Assembly: GCA_016873225.1 (NCBI GenBank)
Contig: VGXS01000013.1
Location: forward strand, 1-64,000
Source: Planctomycetota bacterium
GTDB taxonomy: Bacteria > Planctomycetota > Planctomycetia > Gemmatales > Gemmataceae
Direction: 5' to 3'
Length of the DNA: 64,000 nt
Shown: positions 28,852 to 46,550 of the stretch, piece after piece
Layout: every line of letters begins with the position of its first letter
How positions within the stretch are numbered: position 1 is the first letter of the stretch
Position numbers and translations under genes: made by a program
The notes under the pieces: model-generated
Databases searched by the model: none
Seen by the model: only the letters and a program-made list of their open reading frames with translations
What the model was told of the DNA's origin: nothing

Positions 28852-28878
28852 TATCTCTTGCCTAGTCCGAAATCCTTG

Positions 28879-28915
28879 CCAAGGGCCCGTTTTCGGGCCC
28901 TTGGTTCTTTTTTTG
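28879..28915 (+). terminator. Rho-independent terminator of the ribosomal block
   Basis: An 11-bp perfect stem ccaagggcccg / cgggcccttgg with a tttt loop is followed by ttctttttttg. It stands 27 bp after the rplQ stop and is the best terminator in the window. Confidence 0.93.
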
Positions 28916-29011: not shown

Positions 29012-29074
29012 AGGCTTAGGCGAGGAATCTCCTGGTCTTTGGAGGGAGTCAACTTTCCGGGGAATGAACCTTCC

Positions 29075-32000
29075 ATGCTGTTCGAATTCAAGAAAAACGC
29101 GGATTTCAAAGTGAATCCACCCTCCTCGGAAAAAATCCTGGGATATCTTAACTTTTCGGATGGAAGATGCGATCCGAAATGGCAGGCACTGGTCAACGAA
29201 TCGTTCGCGGCGCTGGATCCTGATTCCAGGCCTTGGGCGACATTGCTGGATCGCTGGTCATCCGACCTTCGGAATCTTTCGGAATCCGGTTCTCCCGGTT
29301 TTCGTGACATCAGGCAGGCGGTCGGCGCCATTGGACTCGCCCGGGAGTCCCTTGCCGCCTACAGGGCCTACCATTCCGATCTTTTGGGACATTGCCATGA
29401 TTCGGAGTTATTCGGTCCCCTTTTTCTCGTTCGTGTCCTCGAGTCGGTTCTCCGGGTGATCCACGATGCCGAAATGCCCGGGGAATCCGGTTTTTCCGAG
29501 GCCTCAAGCCTGGCCGGCAGGGTTGTTCGCGATCTCAACGATTTTGTCGGGTACAGGCCCGTGGCCCTGCTGGAAACGCGGAACACCGGGGAGCCTTACG
29601 AGCACGAGAGGCACCGTCCGGTGCCGGTCTTCATCCGCGGCTGCGGTTTTGCCGTCGGGTCGAAGGAAAAGGTGGTTGAGAGGGCGTTCGCGTTCCTTCG
29701 GGAAACATCGCCCCAACTGCTCCGTGACGCCGGCATCGACCTCGAGCAAATCGAGGAACTGTCGGTCGACATGAGGTCGTATGATCATGGCCACCCCGCC
29801 AACCTGCGGCCCAACCAGGTGTTCGGCGAGTGGGACCCGGCTCGGATCGACATCAAGGGACGGTATTCCCGCTTGGTGGTTCGCAAGCTCATCTTCGACG
29901 CGATCGGGGATTGGGGACGCATCCGTTCATCCCTCGCCGATCCGGATGAATCGGTGTCGGAATCGGCCGCTGTCCTTTGCGGCACGATGCTGATGTCCAG
30001 CGGCGTGACGGGGGGCCAACCCGGCGCGCATGATTCCACCAAGCGCCTCGGCGACCTGCTGCCCGGAATCGCGCGGTACCGCGACCAGTTCTACAGGGAA
30101 CTGCAGGAGCGCATGCCGCCCAACCACCTCGAGCGCTTGCGCGCGGAGGAAAAGCAGGTCAGGCAGCCGTTTGGCAAGGTCCGTCAATTCCTCAACGCGT
30201 GGATGGCGAGGCAAAGGGCCCTGCAGGTGCAGCAGCAGGCGATGGCGACACTGTTCGCCCGCCTCGGGCTTCCGGGCTCGAGCGCGCGGGAGGCGAGGAA
30301 AATCACGGTTTTGGCGCCACGGTTCATGTGTGAACTGATCGCCGGAATGAAGCTGATGAAGTTCGAGGGTGAGCAGGGAAGGCTCGACTCGGCGGTTGGT
30401 CGACTTCCCGCCGTGGTTCAGAAGCTCAGGCTCGGCATTTCCTGCGGCGCCCTGACCGACCCGTGGAATGTCCTTGGTTTCCAGGGGATGTTTCCGCTGA
30501 GCCCGGCGAGGGAGGACGCGACGCGCGACACGAGGCTTGACGACCTCCTTTCCATCGTCGAGAGGCTTTTCGAGTCGATGACATTGCTTTGGGCCGAATC
30601 GGCGGCGCGGGGCGACGACGAGAGGGCCGGCTTCGTCTCGGGCCGGATGAGGGAGCTGGCGGACTGGTGGGACAAATTCGCCACATACCGAGTCAGTGAT
30701 GTTCGCTTTGTCAGGGGATTGCGGCACCTCAAGGCGGGACGCGGGGTGGCCGAGGCCCTGTCACGGTGGCGGCAGCGGGGCTCGGCTCCGGCCGACATGG
30801 TGTTCTGGCAAAAGCAGGTCAGGTCCCTGCGCACCGCCCAGACCCACGCCCTGGCCGTGGAGGCCCTGCTGCGCCAGGGTGACTTGGCCGCCTCCCAGGG
30901 CCTGCTTGTGCATTGGATATCCCTGGCCGACAAGATCGGGCTCGAGGATGGGCAGCACAACTTCTACCGGCTCGCGTTCCAGTGGCTTGGCAAGGCGGCG
31001 GCGATCGGGGAACCCCCGCAGGCGAGGGTGAGGCGGGTCGGATTGTTCCTCGGCCAGTTGGTTGTCAACGCCGGCGAAATGCTGGAAGTGCCGCGCGCAG
31101 GTGAATTCCTCACGGCGGTTCGCGAGGACGATTTCGACCCGGATCATCGGGAGGATGACCCACCTCCGTTTGACGCGAAGCCGGAGGCCGGCGGCCTCGC
31201 CGAGGTTGGGCTTCCCGGGGACAATCCGTTCGACATGGAGGAGCAGGCCGAGCGGCTGGAAAGGCGGCTCCGTTTCCAGGCGGCCCAAGGGCGGCTGATG
31301 CAGGAAGGCGCCCGCTGGCTCGAGGGGCAGGAACTCCCAGTTCCATCGGTCGACCAACTGTGTTCGTGGCGCGAGGAAGCGTGCCACCGTTCGACCAGGG
31401 CGCTTGAGCTGGCCCGTGAGTTGCTTGGCATCGAGGTTCCTCCGCCATCCACGCCCGATGTCGATTCCTTTTTGCAATACGAGCGCCGTCGCAGTCTCCG
31501 CGAGACCCTCACCAACGAGGCGCTCTCCGCCAGCCTCGAGCAGAGAATGGCGGGTTTGGTGTTCGCGGTGGCCTCCGCCTCGCACAAGCGCGAGGTCGCC
31601 AAGCTCGAGGGCGATCCTTCCTACCTTGAGCCATTCATCGAGTTGGGCGGGGCGCTATTCAGGCGCGACGGGGTCAAGGTGAGGCGGGCGCTTCCGGGTT
31701 TCCGCGAATTTTTCCGCGAAGAACCATTGCTGCACACGCACCTGTTCCAAGGCGGCAGGCCGGCGAACCTGATGCGCACCCGGCTGGCGATGCAGGTTCT
31801 CCGCTCCCTGCTCGCGAACCTGCCGCGGCTGGGCCTGTTCGCCGACACGCTTGAATTGCTTCGCCTCGCGAGGCGCATGGAGGACAAGCCCGGCCCCGAT
31901 GGCCCGGGCGTTACCGAATTCGTCCAGTACTACACGGCGGGGTTGCAGGCGATCGTCGAGGCGGTCGTCCATTCCGCGACGGGATGGGAGGATTCGTCGG

Positions 32001-33046
32001 GCCTCGTCGGCATTCTCGACGATCTCGTGAAGCCGTTTGAGGCGCTCTGGATCGAGCACAGCCGATCGGGCCAGTTGTCGGCGCTTGAGGGTATCGGCGG
32101 GGAAAAGGAATACCGAGCGCTGCAAAAGTTCATCAAGGACCATGGGCGTGAACTGTTCCATGCCCGCTTCATGACGCTCGCGAACCTGCGCGGAATTTTG
32201 CACAGGGGACCGAAGGCCTATCTTGAGACGATGGTGCGAGAGTCGGATCCCCTCAAGCCGAGCCGGCTTGCCGATACCCTTGAAGCGCCCCAGGAACTCA
32301 AGGCCGCATCCCGCCGGCTCGAGGTGATCATCAAGACGGTCGTCGAAAACTACGAGGAGTTCAAGGACTACAACACCACGACAACCCTGTCCGACTACGG
32401 CGAGAACCTGAATGTCCTCGTCGATTTCCTCGTGCTGAAGTCGGGATACGACCGTCGGGCGTGGGAGTTGAGGCCCCGCCTTCTTGTTCACGAGGTGCTG
32501 GCCAGGCAGGAAAGGCATGAGGAGGCCCGGGCCTGGCAGTCGGCTCTCGAGGAGCGAACCAAGGCCATCGCGGAGGACCAGATCGACCGCCTTGGCCAAC
32601 TTGAGCGCCTTCACGGGGTCAGGCTTTCGACCATCCGCGACCGGATCGAGGAAAGGTTTGTCCGCAACCTCGGGTTGGACCGACTTTGCGCCCTCATCCG
32701 GCCGGTGCTGGAGCAATCCCGGGCCTTGGCGGCGAGCGGCCAGCAGGGTACCGGAATCTCATCCGGCGCCGAGGAACACGCATGTCCGGCGCTTGCCTCG
32801 CTGCGCGAGGGGCTTGAGCCATTCATGGAGAAACCGGCGGGCGTCGGGCGGGATGTCCCCGAGTGGATCAGGAAACTCGAGCTGGAATTGCAAAGGGCCA
32901 GCGTCACCACGCTTGTGGAAGCTTCCGCACCTGAAAGATTTTTCCTGATACCCGAGCCCAAGTTGGCGCGCATCGATGTGCTTGGGGAGATCAAGGCCAT
33001 GACCCCGCCTGATGACTCGAAGCCCGATTCCGCGTTGGCCACCTGA
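29075..33046 (+). CDS. Very large uncharacterised cytoplasmic protein
   Basis: 1,323 aa from ATG at 29075; the track's TTG at 29039 adds 12 residues. I do not recognise a family. No signal peptide, membrane helix or catalytic motif is evident. It appears largely alpha-helical, with an acidic proline-bearing linker near residues 685-710 (DDFDPDHREDDPPPFD) that may divide it into two parts, and heptad-like stretches elsewhere. Codon use and GC resemble neighbouring core genes, so it is not an obvious foreign insertion. It stands alone after a strong terminator and before a beta-barrel gene. A scaffold role is possible but unsupported. Confidence 0.85.
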   Translation: MLFEFKKNADFKVNPPSSEKILGYLNFSDGRCDPKWQALVNESFAALDPDSRPWATLLDRWSSDLRNLSESGSPGFRDIRQAVGAIGLARESLAAYRAYHSDLLGHCHDSELFGPLFLVRVLESVLRVIHDAEMPGESGFSEASSLAGRVVRDLNDFVGYRPVALLETRNTGEPYEHERHRPVPVFIRGCGFAVGSKEKVVERAFAFLRETSPQLLRDAGIDLEQIEELSVDMRSYDHGHPANLRPNQVFGEWDPARIDIKGRYSRLVVRKLIFDAIGDWGRIRSSLADPDESVSESAAVLCGTMLMSSGVTGGQPGAHDSTKRLGDLLPGIARYRDQFYRELQERMPPNHLERLRAEEKQVRQPFGKVRQFLNAWMARQRALQVQQQAMATLFARLGLPGSSAREARKITVLAPRFMCELIAGMKLMKFEGEQGRLDSAVGRLPAVVQKLRLGISCGALTDPWNVLGFQGMFPLSPAREDATRDTRLDDLLSIVERLFESMTLLWAESAARGDDERAGFVSGRMRELADWWDKFATYRVSDVRFVRGLRHLKAGRGVAEALSRWRQRGSAPADMVFWQKQVRSLRTAQTHALAVEALLRQGDLAASQGLLVHWISLADKIGLEDGQHNFYRLAFQWLGKAAAIGEPPQARVRRVGLFLGQLVVNAGEMLEVPRAGEFLTAVREDDFDPDHREDDPPPFDAKPEAGGLAEVGLPGDNPFDMEEQAERLERRLRFQAAQGRLMQEGARWLEGQELPVPSVDQLCSWREEACHRSTRALELARELLGIEVPPPSTPDVDSFLQYERRRSLRETLTNEALSASLEQRMAGLVFAVASASHKREVAKLEGDPSYLEPFIELGGALFRRDGVKVRRALPGFREFFREEPLLHTHLFQGGRPANLMRTRLAMQVLRSLLANLPRLGLFADTLELLRLARRMEDKPGPDGPGVTEFVQYYTAGLQAIVEAVVHSATGWEDSSGLVGILDDLVKPFEALWIEHSRSGQLSALEGIGGEKEYRALQKFIKDHGRELFHARFMTLANLRGILHRGPKAYLETMVRESDPLKPSRLADTLEAPQELKAASRRLEVIIKTVVENYEEFKDYNTTTTLSDYGENLNVLVDFLVLKSGYDRRAWELRPRLLVHEVLARQERHEEARAWQSALEERTKAIAEDQIDRLGQLERLHGVRLSTIRDRIEERFVRNLGLDRLCALIRPVLEQSRALAASGQQGTGISSGAEEHACPALASLREGLEPFMEKPAGVGRDVPEWIRKLELELQRASVTTLVEASAPERFFLIPEPKLARIDVLGEIKAMTPPDDSKPDSALAT

Positions 33047-33138: not shown

Positions 33139-34071
33139 ATGCGGCCAATTCTTGCCATCATCACGGCCACCATCCTGTCGGTTTGGGGTGTCGCGCCAAT
33201 CGCATGCGGCCAGGAGGCCGCAGTAGAGGCCGGCATGGCGGAGGTTTCCGCGGCGGATCCCTCCATCCCGTTCTGGTCGCCGGCCAGGCTCAATTGGCGG
33301 ATGCGCGAGGTCGAGGATCGCTCACCCAGCATTCGTGTTCCCGGTCCCGACACGGCGAACTACCCCAATGGCTGCTTCACGCTTCCCGCCGGCAGGTCGT
33401 ATGTCGAATTTCTGCCCGTGGTGTTTTCCGGACAAACGGCAGGGAGCCCATCCAACTACAGCGCCCAGGTGCTCCTGAGGCACGGCATCACCGACTGGCT
33501 TGAGTTCCGCCTTTTCCTCCCGGGAATGCCGCAAGTCCAGTTCGGGGGCGACGGCCAATCGCAGGTGACGGGCGTGGGGCCGCTGACATTCGATACCAAA
33601 ATCCACCTGTTTGATGAAAAGAAAGAATTTTTCCTTCCCGCGTTCGGCATAGAACTGGCGTTGCAGACCAACTGGGCCTCCCCGGCCTTCAACTCGGGTG
33701 TCCAGCCCTCGATCAACCTGCTGTTCGACCACTCACTGCCATTGGGCTTGGTATTCGAGTGGAATGTGGGAGTGTTTGGTGGCAAGGACAGCAACAATAT
33801 CAATTATTACCTGGCGACATGGCAATTCTCCCTGCAGAGGGAAGTGCTGCCTGGGTTCGCTGTCTTCGCTCAAGCCTTCATCAACGACGCCAACCTGACT
33901 CGGTTTGGTCCGGAAATCAGGTCGACGATACCCAATAATGCGACTGTGGTTGGAGCGGGATTCCTGTGGACGGTGAGCGACCTGTTCGCGGTCTACGCCT
34001 CGGGCGGCGCCGGTGTCACCAAGGAAGCTTCCGAAAGCGTGGCTCAGATCGGCATGGCGTTCGCCTTCTGA
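33139..34071 (+). CDS. Predicted outer-membrane beta-barrel protein (transporter-like)
   Basis: 310 aa from ATG at 33139, where a signal peptide begins (RPILAIITATILSVWGVAPIACGQ); the track start at 33073 hides it. The mature part consists of alternating hydrophobic strands and ends in AFAF, a terminal Phe typical of outer-membrane barrels. The pattern VLLRHGITDWLEFRLFLPG and the strand order recall the family annotated as MetA-pathway phenol degradation or transporter proteins, often over-named. Substrate unknown. It converges with rho with a 6-bp gap. Confidence 0.7.
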   Translation: MRPILAIITATILSVWGVAPIACGQEAAVEAGMAEVSAADPSIPFWSPARLNWRMREVEDRSPSIRVPGPDTANYPNGCFTLPAGRSYVEFLPVVFSGQTAGSPSNYSAQVLLRHGITDWLEFRLFLPGMPQVQFGGDGQSQVTGVGPLTFDTKIHLFDEKKEFFLPAFGIELALQTNWASPAFNSGVQPSINLLFDHSLPLGLVFEWNVGVFGGKDSNNINYYLATWQFSLQREVLPGFAVFAQAFINDANLTRFGPEIRSTIPNNATVVGAGFLWTVSDLFAVYASGGAGVTKEASESVAQIGMAFAF

Positions 34072-41841: not shown

Positions 41842-42098
41842 GGCACTCCATATTCGTCGCAACGCCGTGGGAAAGGTTAATCCGGCCAATTGGGATGAAT
41901 CAACTGAAGCCGCCAAAGGCAACTTGAAAGGAATAATCGTCAAATGATCGCTTGCTTGACTTGTCCGGGCTTCTGGATTCCTTGCCTTGCATCCAATTGT
42001 CAGAAACAATTCCCAAAGAAGCGCAATTTTCGTTTGCTCCGGCGTATGGATGTTGGACAAACAGCATTCCGCACCCTCCAAATGCTCGAGGTGGCACC
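41842..42098. other. Divergent intergenic region between wzm and the VWA gene
   Basis: 257 bp between divergent start codons, of lower GC than the surrounding genes. It should hold promoters for both directions; TTGACT at 41956-41961 is a good -35 but no matching -10 is found. Several track ORFs here are shadows. Confidence 0.4.
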
Positions 42099-45000
42099 AT
42101 GACAAATCGCAAATTTCTTGCCTGCACGCTTGGACTTTTCGGAGTTGGCGCCGCCTTGGTTGGCCTGAGGGTGATGGGCGACCCGACCCGCGCCGCAAAG
42201 GAACGGCGGATTTCGGTGGTTTCCCCCATTCAGGAAAAGCTCGACGAAGAAAACGGCATTTCCAGATTCACCAACCAACCCGCCATTGGCTACACCACGG
42301 CCCAGGGCGAGGCACTGGTTGCCATTCAGATCAAGCCGGAAATTCCCTCGCAACTGCTGCCCCGTGATGTGGTTCTTGTTGTCGACACATCAGCCAGCCA
42401 GGCGCAAGGTCCGCTGGCCAGTTCATCCAGGATCGCGCGGGCTTTTGTCAAGCATCTCCAGCCAACCGATCGCATCGGGCTGGTTACAGCCAATCTCGAC
42501 CCAACCCTTCTAACGCGGGGTCTGGTGACGCCCGCCGAGGCCGCCCAGGCGCTTGACAAGCTCGACCAGGAATATGCCAGCGGCGCCACGAATGTGCCCA
42601 AGGCTGTCGAGGCTGCCGCAGGAATGCTGGAACTCAATCATGAGCGTTCCAGGTCGGTCGTTTTTCTTGGAGACGGCATCAGTTTGGCGAGCCCGCTTGA
42701 CGGGTCCGACCGGGCCAAAGTGGTGGACGACCTGGTTCGTCGGCAGGTTCCCTTGATCACCATCCCGATGGGAGCCCGCATGGATCCCACCAATCTTCAC
42801 GGCTTGGCGACCGGCACGGGAGGCAAGTGCGTTCGTATTCGCCAGGGAGACGCGCCCGAGGCCGTGGCGGAACGAGTCAGGCTTGCGGTGGATTCCCCGG
42901 TCCACTACCCCGTTTCCATCAAGGTTATCGATGGCGTCAAGGAACTCTATCCTTCCAAGCTGCCTCCATTGCGGGCGGATTCTCCAACGCTCGTCGTGGG
43001 CACAATCGCGCCGGGCAGCAAGCAAATTGAAATTGCGATTGGTGGAACATGCCGAGGCGCCGAGCGGGCCCTATCGGTGCGTCACGCCACCCCCCCCCAT
43101 GAGGTGGAGAATTTCTTCCTCGGCAGGATGGTGGCCGAATGGCGCGACGCCAAGGATGCGCCCGCCATGGTGCAGGCCGACCGCGCCTTGGCGTTGGCGT
43201 CCGCCCAAGGCAGGCTGGACAGGGAGGAAACGCTGGCCAAGGGTAATTTCGCGCTCAGCGTCGGCCGGGTCGAAGCGGCATCGCGGTTTTTCACCGAGGC
43301 GCGGAAGATCGATCCTTCGAACCTTGAGGCGGCTCAGGGCCTCAAGCTTGCCGGCAAGGTGATGGAAGGTTCGGTTTCCCGCGACCAACTGATGAAGTCA
43401 ATGACCCAGATCAACGCGCTGATTCAGGATGCGGCCAAGCCCGGTGCCAAGCCGGCCGATGGCGGCGCGCCCGGAGTCGAGGCTGATTTCCTGGAAAAGC
43501 AGAAGCAACTCGCGGAGATCACGCTCCAGAAGCGCGAGGGCGAGATCAAGGCCGCGCTCAGCGAGGCTAGCCGCGCCACCGGGACCGATGCCATCAGCCA
43601 AGCCAAGGAAAGCCTCAAGCAGCAACTGAATGGGCTGCAAAACGATCCGAATGTCCGCGAGGACAAGCGCAGGCAGCTCAGCAACCAGATTGAGTCACGC
43701 CTCAGGGAACTTGACAAGCGGGGCCAAACGGCGGAACGCGAGGAGCGCGAGCGCCAAATTGCCCAGATCGCCCTTGAGGAGCGTCGCAAGGAGGAACGAA
43801 GCCTCGCGGCTCAGCAGGACCGCGTCAAGGAAAGGTTGAGGCAGTTCCATGCACTCATGAACCAGGCACGCGAGGAACTGGCGCAGCAGCAGGCCCAGAA
43901 AATTCGCGAGGATCTCGTCAACCAGGGCCTCGAGGTTCCGCCCGCTGTCACGGCCGCTTATGCGATCTCACAGCGTGGATATTACCTGCGCAACTTGCAG
44001 GATCTTGTGCGCGTTCGCGAAGACAAGTGGCTGGCGGTGCTTTACGAGGTTGAGCGCAGCCATGTGCCTTTCCCCGATGAACCGCCAATCACCTTCCCCG
44101 ATGCTTCCAGCCCCGTGATCAAGGGCCGCTACAAGGATTGGGCCGACTTGTCCAAGAAGCGCATCGACAAGTACGACACCCAGGGGTTCGGCTCGAACAC
44201 CCCCGAAGCGACCATGAAGCTTCGCGACACAATGAGCCGTGTCATTGATTATCCGGGGCTAGATGTGGCCACGGCCAAGGTCAGTGAGGAACTCGATCGC
44301 CTTGGCAAGGAACACAACATCAGCTTCGAGTTCAATGAGGCTGCCTTCCGCGCCGCCGGCATCGAGAAGGTTCGCGACTCTGAAATCGGCGACCCCATTC
44401 CCCGCATGCGCGCCACCTTGGGCACCATCGTTCGCAAGCTGATCGCGCGCATCAAGAACAACTCCCCCGAGGGCGCGGCCACCTATGTGATTCGACGCGA
44501 CAATGTCGAGATCACCACGAGCCAATTCCAACTGCTCGACAAGGTGGCGAGGGCCTACCCGGTTGCCGATATCGTCTACGGAGCGCCCAACTCCTTTGCC
44601 CAGAGTTCTGTCATCCAGCAGTCAACGCTCTTCGGGTTCGGTGGCAGCTACGGCTTCGCCGGGCAGTCGGCCCAGAACTCGTTCAACGGTATTGGAGCGC
44701 TCAACGGCCTCGGCCAAGTGGGCGCGGCTGGCGCCGCGATGCTGGGCGTGATTGGTGCCGCTGGCCAGGCCGGCGCCATCGGCGGCGCCCTCGGCGGCAA
44801 CCAAATCGGCGGGCAATTGGGCGTTGGCGCTGTCGGCAACGCCGGCATGCAAGGCCAAGTGGGCCAGTTCGGCCAAAATGGCGGGCTTTCATCCCTCGGC
44901 CAGTTCGGAAATGTCGGCGGCCAATTCGGACTGCAGGGCGGCAACTACGCCGACACCCTGGTGACGACGATCCGTGAACTCGTCGGCCGCAGGTCGGATT

Positions 45001-46550
45001 GGGCCGCCCCGATTGTGTTGCCTGGACAGCAGGCCGCGGATCCGCTCCAGCAAACCGATCCCAACGCCGGCGACCAGCAGGAGCGAAACCAGATCGGCTA
45101 CTTCCAGCCCGCCAACGCCCTAGTCATCAAGGGCACCTCCTACATCCACACGGAGCTGTACAGCAACTTCGTGGCCCCCGTTGGTGGGGCCGCTCCGGGT
45201 GGCATGGGTGCCTTGCCCGTGAAGCGTCCTGGCGCGCTGGCCGCCGGCAACAAGCCGGGTGAGATCAAGAAAGACATCGACCCGCGCAAGGTTTGGCAGG
45301 ATGCGCTGGCCCGCGGGGTTGACGATCCCGGTCTCATCGTCGCTGTCGCCGACTTCCTCGCCATGAACCAGATGTGGGACCACGCCACGGAATTCCTGAA
45401 GGCCAACCTTCGCAAGGGCATCGTCGTGAAGCCTTGGGTGTATGAATCCCTCGCCGTGGCCTTGCGTGAGAGCGGCGCCGCCCCGGCCGAGATCGAACGG
45501 GCCGAAATCGCCTTGGCGGACCTCGAGCCGCGGGATTCGGACGGATACCTGAAAGCGGCCCGCGGCATGGCCAACCTCAAGAGGTTCGACCGCGCCGTGG
45601 CGCTGTGCCGGCAAGCCTCGCTGGTTGATCCTTCCAACAGCCGCGCCCTTGAACAGGGACTGAGATTCGCGGAAATCGCCAGCGACGCCGATGGCATGGC
45701 ATGGGCGGCTGGCGGCCTTCTCAAGCAGGAATGGCCCGAGCGCAACAACGATCTCCAGGGCCTTGCCAAGCGTTCGCTTGATGCCATGGCGCACCGGCTG
45801 GGCCAGCAGAACCGTGCCGACGACCGAAAGCGGTTGCTTGCCAGCGCGTCCGAACAAGGCCGTCGGGACCTCGTGGTTCACCTGAGCTGGATTGGCGACG
45901 CCGATCTGGACCTTGAGGTGAAGGAGCCCACAGGCAGCATTTGCTCAACCCTGACAAGAAGGACTCCCAATGGCGGCACCTTCGTGGGTGACATGCCTGG
46001 GGAGGGCCCGACCGAGCGATATGTTGCTGCCGAGGCGTTCTCCGGTGCCTACGAGATTCGCGTGCGCGCCATCTGGGGCAATTCCGCAAGCGGCAAGGCC
46101 CAGGTTCGCGTGATCCGCCATCAAGGCACCGACCGGGAAACACAGGAGGTTGTGCAGGTAGATGTGGCCTCGGGCAAGCTGGTGCGCGTTGAACTGGCTG
46201 ACGGCCGCAGGGCGGAACTGGCCGCCGTGCTGCCACCCCGACCTCGTGAGGAATCCGCCTCCGCCCCCGACCGTCGCGATGACCCGTTCCACTCTCTCCG
46301 CCGCATGACCGAGCCTTACATTCCCGCCGCCTCGGGAATTCGCGGGGGTGCCGGCAACGCGGCCCAGGTGATGCCCCAGGTCGAGGCACCCGCCACCAGG
46401 AAGAACGCCGGATCCGAAAGGGTTTACCAGAACAGGGTCGCCGCCTTCATGCGCAACAGCATGGATGTCGCCTCGCAGATCGAACTTGAATCGCAAAGGC
46501 GATCGGTTCGTGCCACGGGCAGCAACCTGATCGATCGGCAAGCGAAATGA
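42099..46550 (+). CDS. Giant VWA-domain protein with STN-like, low-complexity and DUF2135-like regions
   Basis: 1,483 aa from ATG at 42099, with GAGGTGG just upstream. A membrane anchor or signal (7-24) is followed by a VWA domain (about 89-265) with an intact MIDAS DTSAS at 96-100. Next come TPR-like repeats, a charged coiled coil (about 460-600), a region resembling secretin/STN-type domains (about 706-810), a Gly/Gln-rich stretch (about 833-953), a further TPR-like region, and a C-terminal beta domain like DUF2135 (DADLDLEVKEPTG). Probably a large extracytoplasmic adhesion or scaffold protein. The boundaries are approximate. Confidence 0.85.
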   Translation: MTNRKFLACTLGLFGVGAALVGLRVMGDPTRAAKERRISVVSPIQEKLDEENGISRFTNQPAIGYTTAQGEALVAIQIKPEIPSQLLPRDVVLVVDTSASQAQGPLASSSRIARAFVKHLQPTDRIGLVTANLDPTLLTRGLVTPAEAAQALDKLDQEYASGATNVPKAVEAAAGMLELNHERSRSVVFLGDGISLASPLDGSDRAKVVDDLVRRQVPLITIPMGARMDPTNLHGLATGTGGKCVRIRQGDAPEAVAERVRLAVDSPVHYPVSIKVIDGVKELYPSKLPPLRADSPTLVVGTIAPGSKQIEIAIGGTCRGAERALSVRHATPPHEVENFFLGRMVAEWRDAKDAPAMVQADRALALASAQGRLDREETLAKGNFALSVGRVEAASRFFTEARKIDPSNLEAAQGLKLAGKVMEGSVSRDQLMKSMTQINALIQDAAKPGAKPADGGAPGVEADFLEKQKQLAEITLQKREGEIKAALSEASRATGTDAISQAKESLKQQLNGLQNDPNVREDKRRQLSNQIESRLRELDKRGQTAEREERERQIAQIALEERRKEERSLAAQQDRVKERLRQFHALMNQAREELAQQQAQKIREDLVNQGLEVPPAVTAAYAISQRGYYLRNLQDLVRVREDKWLAVLYEVERSHVPFPDEPPITFPDASSPVIKGRYKDWADLSKKRIDKYDTQGFGSNTPEATMKLRDTMSRVIDYPGLDVATAKVSEELDRLGKEHNISFEFNEAAFRAAGIEKVRDSEIGDPIPRMRATLGTIVRKLIARIKNNSPEGAATYVIRRDNVEITTSQFQLLDKVARAYPVADIVYGAPNSFAQSSVIQQSTLFGFGGSYGFAGQSAQNSFNGIGALNGLGQVGAAGAAMLGVIGAAGQAGAIGGALGGNQIGGQLGVGAVGNAGMQGQVGQFGQNGGLSSLGQFGNVGGQFGLQGGNYADTLVTTIRELVGRRSDWAAPIVLPGQQAADPLQQTDPNAGDQQERNQIGYFQPANALVIKGTSYIHTELYSNFVAPVGGAAPGGMGALPVKRPGALAAGNKPGEIKKDIDPRKVWQDALARGVDDPGLIVAVADFLAMNQMWDHATEFLKANLRKGIVVKPWVYESLAVALRESGAAPAEIERAEIALADLEPRDSDGYLKAARGMANLKRFDRAVALCRQASLVDPSNSRALEQGLRFAEIASDADGMAWAAGGLLKQEWPERNNDLQGLAKRSLDAMAHRLGQQNRADDRKRLLASASEQGRRDLVVHLSWIGDADLDLEVKEPTGSICSTLTRRTPNGGTFVGDMPGEGPTERYVAAEAFSGAYEIRVRAIWGNSASGKAQVRVIRHQGTDRETQEVVQVDVASGKLVRVELADGRRAELAAVLPPRPREESASAPDRRDDPFHSLRRMTEPYIPAASGIRGGAGNAAQVMPQVEAPATRKNAGSERVYQNRVAAFMRNSMDVASQIELESQRRSVRATGSNLIDRQAK
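44596..44956 (+). repeat. Gly/Gln/Ala-rich low-complexity coding segment
   Basis: About 120 codons of short irregular repeats such as GQFGQNGGLSSLGQFGNVGGQF and GAAGQAGAIGGALGG within the VWA protein. Such stretches form flexible, elastic or self-associating linkers. The degenerate repeats are prone to length change by slippage. Confidence 0.8.

Follow-up and report, generated by a model that had tools for sequence, protein, structure and literature searches.

Two described protein groups come closest to the protein analyzed here. TPR/importin-type helical repeat proteins (e.g., PDB entries 7rdr, 3sf4 and 5vch) are, like it, long helix-rich chains, and indoleamine 2,3-dioxygenase (IDO; PF01231) resembles it superficially in the order of a few residues around positions 320-396 of the protein analyzed here. 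More generally, many large lineage-specific proteins belong to flagella, mobile elements, phages or defence systems. As regards planctomycetes, the Tn-seq report on Planctopirus limnophila counts 151 coding sequences that are essential and whose function is unknown, many of them found in planctomycetes only, and a saturated transposon map of this species is already available (PMC10632474). Here, we analyzed a gene for a 1,323-residue protein within a window of 64,000 nucleotides (the whole stretch of DNA under study) from a member of the Gemmataceae. As sequence comparisons show, it belongs to a class-wide protein family without known relative in the searched databases, whose function we can only infer.

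The gene and a possible upstream start were delimited as follows:

29075..33046, + strand: coding sequence of the 1,323-residue protein, stop codon included (open reading frame and homologues)
29039..29074, + strand: putative N-terminal extension of 12 residues, if translation starts at the in-frame TTG (29039)

As the initial annotation had described, 1,323 codons plus the stop lie in a single unbroken frame on the forward strand. Full-length homologues share 28-68% identity with the protein, and a dN/dS of 0.05-0.065 (about 0.06) was obtained against a same-genus genome, where the comparison partner is a partial copy, 97% identical. Since homologues exist, mostly full length and without internal stops, and dN/dS is low, this is a genuine coding gene and not a chance reading frame, and it is evolving under strong purifying selection. 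Translation from the TTG at 29039 is possible; bearing on this start, homologues can be aligned from about residue 12-22 of the 1,323-residue protein onwards. Separately, one internal stop (TGA or TAA) was noted in the matched frame in a few genomes (G418, G410, G387, G415 and G040), for which sequencing errors, pseudogenes or alternative decoding may account.

To describe the anatomy of the protein, the two halves were modelled separately with AlphaFold from 52-sequence alignments, which together with the alignment delimit these parts:

29108..31144, + strand: N-terminal module, residues 12-690 (model pLDDT 91.5, pTM 0.88)
31145..31219, + strand: variable linker between the modules, residues 691-715 (from the alignment)
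31220..33004, + strand: C-terminal all-helical module, residues 716-1310 (model pLDDT 89.9, pTM 0.88)

Two modules, both helical and with a variable linker between them, are thus predicted with high confidence. In line with the initial description of a large helical protein, the models are mostly helical; the N half also contains a small region with strands, at about residues 157-270. The protein is probably cytosolic, because it contains no stretch of transmembrane strength (the highest mean hydrophobicity over 19 residues was 1.44) and no evident signal peptide.

Searches with the 1,323-residue protein gave no match above the curated cut-offs of Pfam, NCBIfam, PHROGs or PADLOC. When all family members were searched against the same collections, scattered, member-specific weak matches were obtained, none of them significant family-wide. 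The commonest, to cobalamin adenosyltransferase (PF01923), occurred in 9 of the 52 members with a best E-value of 0.0056 and was taken as chance; in the single member shown, its score was 14.7 bits, below the cut-off of 24. PDB chains searched by sequence profile likewise yielded nothing significant for the family. A known fold was to be called from a confident model at a Foldseek E-value of at most 0.001 with a TM-score of at least 0.5, and neither the N half nor the C half had any match to the PDB at E ≤ 0.001; the N half had no match among viral structures either. Hence the statement that the protein has no recognisable domain holds for the Pfam, NCBIfam, PHROGs, PADLOC and PDB sequence searches, and as far as these reach the protein is undescribed, as had been proposed. 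The result named beforehand as refuting this, a clear match to a characterised family in a profile or structure search, did not appear.

The main rival to the enzyme-like reading set out below is a non-catalytic, solenoid-like helical scaffold or adaptor that would organise a planctomycete-specific complex, for instance in the envelope, in budding or in trafficking. The great length and mostly helical models of the protein favour such a role, as does the nature of its weak top PDB fold matches, which were TPR proteins, importins and APC/C subunits. However, none of these matches was significant: against TPR/importin-type proteins the best E-values were 0.004 for the N half and 0.21 for the C half, with TM-scores of about 0.1-0.2. 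Moreover, profile self-comparison revealed no internal repeats, which counts against a simple repeat solenoid, and so a TPR/HEAT/importin scaffold was indicated neither by repeats nor by a significant repeat-protein fold match.

The distribution of conservation along the chain provided further information. The alignment of 52 sequences contains 137 near-invariant columns, and the polar ones crowd into three patches:

29345..29944, + strand: patch 1, residues 91-290 (38 near-invariant columns, 21 of them polar)
30395..30574, + strand: patch 2, residues 441-500 (CGAxxDPWNxLGFQG...EDxxxDxR; 7 polar near-invariant columns)
32345..32554, + strand: patch 3, residues 1091-1160 (YNxTTTxSDYGENL; 8 polar near-invariant columns)

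Patch 1 comprises the motifs HxDLLxH, LNDxVGxRPxxxLE, YxHExxRPxP and DPRxYDxxHPxNxRPNxxFGEWDP together with R266/R270. The 12 polar positions checked for identity (E228, D237, D254, R266, R336, Y340, Q364, R370, N374, R416, D485 and R487) are the same in 52 of 52 sequences, and the most divergent family member keeps 78 of the 137 near-invariant columns. This patchy polar conservation, which resembles that of enzymes and speaks against a scaffold, would be explained by an enzyme or ligand-binding site no less well than by the structural or regulatory role suggested in the initial annotation.

Our preferred, though tentative, reading is that the 1,323-residue protein may be an enzyme or an enzyme-like ligand-binding protein specific to Planctomycetia, to which we assign a probability of roughly 0.4. 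It is preferred because the near-invariant polar residues sit in three short patches rather than being spread out as in repeat scaffolds. We infer a putative site in the N-terminal module (residues about 91-500), where an invariant Asp/Glu/Arg/His/Asn cluster around the small strand-containing region, together with the CGA-DPWN-LGFQG...EDxxxDxR segment, would form the active or binding site. This site might then be completed, covered or regulated by the helical C-terminal module, in which a separate YNxTTTxSDYGEN motif occurs. Against an enzyme stands the fact that neither sequence nor fold searches matched a catalytic family, and clustered invariant polar residues can alternatively mark a surface that contacts proteins or nucleic acids, or buried salt bridges. 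Accounting for the same patches as partner-binding surfaces, the scaffold role appears nearly as likely as the putative enzyme or ligand site. A bolder version of the enzyme-like reading, in which the protein stands for an enzyme class not described so far, with a new helical fold of two modules, serves core Planctomycetia physiology and is dispensed with only in Isosphaeraceae, we regard as rather unlikely.

One specific enzyme identity was suggested by eye, since residues 320-396 resemble the IDO segment GAQSS...MPxxH...RxxHxxxA, so that the protein could be a highly diverged heme-dioxygenase-like enzyme of the IDO fold that has lost its heme ligand. However, hhalign against seven planctomycete IDOs returned a probability of 0.3% and left residues 320-396 unaligned. 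The MPP-H match is not conserved in the family, where the consensus at this place reads R-A-x-Q-L-Q and lacks a His. IDO is helical in the region where strands are predicted in the 1,323-residue protein, and no IDO structure was found among the 50 best fold matches of the N half. An IDO or heme-dioxygenase identity was rejected in view of the hhalign result and the predicted structure, and even the diverged, ligand-less form is highly improbable.

With regard to distribution, a homologue, mostly full length, was present in 52 of 59 related genomes (the window's own counted), and a profile search detected the family in 126 of 159 Planctomycetia genomes, nearly all at least 90% complete. The gene is nearly always single-copy, and in its tree the proteins group by genome family. 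Vertical, essentially single-copy inheritance within the class Planctomycetia is therefore shown, and the term 'orphan' used in the initial annotation does not apply to a protein with homologues across the class. Its planctomycete specificity, by contrast, was borne out in the phylum samples and the 159 class genomes, in a narrower form: the family is restricted to Planctomycetia and absent from the Isosphaeraceae-type genomes listed. All significant matches in three phylum samples fell inside the class, and four short matches outside it (E 0.04-0.3, 26-53 residues) were taken as chance. A scan of 84,980 species genomes with peptide patterns, one of which was the patch 2 segment (CGAxxDPWN region), returned 575 relatives; the best 80 of these came nearly all from planctomycete-titled records, the exception being titled just 'uncultured bacterium', and with the best 80 listed, rare members beyond planctomycetes are possible. 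Restriction to a single class is also the pattern of a lineage-specific structure, which adds to the case for a scaffold.

No match was obtained in 33 of the 159 class genomes. Among the 20 of these that were listed, 19 belong to family f3, by inference the Isosphaeraceae, and one to the window's own family; none of the f3 genomes listed had a match. The absences comprise one clade plus scattered draft genomes, a pattern that also favours vertical inheritance. In an rpoB tree the f3 genomes form one clade, and f7, placed beside f3 with weak support, retains a very divergent copy of the protein. For these two reasons, loss in Isosphaeraceae looks like the simplest reading, and it means that the function is dispensable for part of Planctomycetia, a point that we count against the preferred reading. 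Two further observations were made on the genomes themselves. Record CAMCLK010000005.1 (L071) is titled Candidatus Kuenenia stuttgartiensis, a title that looks wrong: its genome is the window's nearest relative, of the same genus and family, and carries the 1,323-residue Planctomycetia protein. Further, the RpoB branch of the window's genus is long (0.64; other Gemmatales about 0.1-0.2), suggesting that this genus evolves fast.

The general expectation for large lineage-specific proteins would make a flagellar, mobile-element, phage or defence protein conceivable, and no result here points that way. Mobile, phage and defence functions are at odds with the vertical, single-copy inheritance, with the lack of any relative in viral contigs, phages or plasmids, and with the lack of a PADLOC or PHROGs match. 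As for flagella, co-occurrence was examined and rejected: FliM was above cut-off in 70 of the 159 genomes, just one of them from Gemmataceae, compared to 126 of 159 for the gene, most Gemmataceae included, so FliM is missing from nearly all Gemmataceae that carry the gene. This whole group of functions is accordingly very improbable. Independently of the gene, a flagellar motor would seem to be rare in Gemmataceae, as nearly all sampled genomes of this family lack a FliM match.

The initial annotation had based part of its case on the position of the gene and its codon use. The gene does lie directly after the alpha operon in this window, but the following element separates the two:

28878..28915, + strand: intrinsic terminator after rplQ, stem-loop plus T-run, between the alpha operon and the gene for the 1,323-residue protein

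Its stem-loop (28878-28905) has a GC-rich stem of 12 pairs (9 G-C), a 4-base loop and an adjoining T-run; with a dG of -29.3 kcal/mol (z -5.1), it was equalled in stability by none of 200 shuffles. Furthermore, among 79 loci with neighbours, rplQ/rpoA lie upstream of the gene in just four, i.e., in this genome and at three other loci, so that neither conserved adjacency nor co-transcription with rpoA/rplQ was indicated. As for codon use (CAI-like index 0.60, GC3 0.78), the gene resembles map, rho and prfA; the index is below those of rpoA (0.785) and secY (0.714), and overall the codon use is that of an average window gene, unlike ribosomal genes. Because of the terminator, the 4/79 adjacency and the average codon use, the positional argument carries little weight, and a functional link with the alpha operon, as implied by the initial annotation, is not supported. 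A regulator linked to transcription or translation, with a functional tie to rpoA/rplQ, is favoured by the adjacency at these four loci but improbable in view of the same three results, and profile searches of the family found no nucleic-acid-binding domain.

No constant gene neighbour was found across the 79 loci. This is expected of a lone-acting protein rather than of a member of a gene-linked complex, and it also counts against a scaffold. Neighbours vary by order: many Planctomycetales have a divergent MotA/ExbB plus TolR-like operon upstream, many Pirellulales-type loci a PQQ-propeller gene, and some Gemmataceae a purN-like gene. As candidate partners, these were rejected: close MotA/ExbB relatives are absent from many gene-carrying Gemmataceae, and the PQQ-propeller and purN-like neighbours are each limited to certain lineages. 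The divergent operon of Planctomycetales is an observation in its own right; it consists of three genes (L032:2487-7443, with matching places in L095, L145, L148 and L150), encoding a MotA/ExbB channel protein, which is extended at its C terminus by a conserved part, and proteins of 690-745 aa and 380 aa, the latter two with TolR-like N-terminal membrane segments and without family match. In the window, the next gene (33139-34071) encodes a 310 aa protein with an exported-looking N terminus, possibly an outer-membrane barrel, for which Pfam gave no match; in L076 and L078, too, the gene is followed by a similar protein. Elsewhere in the window, a very large protein (up to 1,532 aa) is encoded at 41952-46550; its N-terminal part is VWA-like and its middle is rich in glycine, alanine and glutamine.

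If confirmed, the family would be a very large conserved protein that marks a bacterial class of unusual cell biology. Being near-universal outside Isosphaeraceae, it offers a clean comparative handle, as that family manages without the protein or differently. An orthologue is expected in P. limnophila, because the family occurs throughout related genomes, and the question of essentiality can probably be answered from the transposon map reported for this species (PMC10632474). Since P. limnophila is both mapped and genetically tractable, essentiality could be read at once and the function tested directly.

In comparison with known systems, the protein departs from TPR/importin-type proteins in having no sequence repeat, and in carrying invariant polar patches and a strand-containing insert. 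It departs from PF01231 in that the family has no conserved heme ligand at the suggested position and its predicted strands are misplaced. The family falls outside every family and fold searched here, and it is new as a protein family and as a predicted fold.
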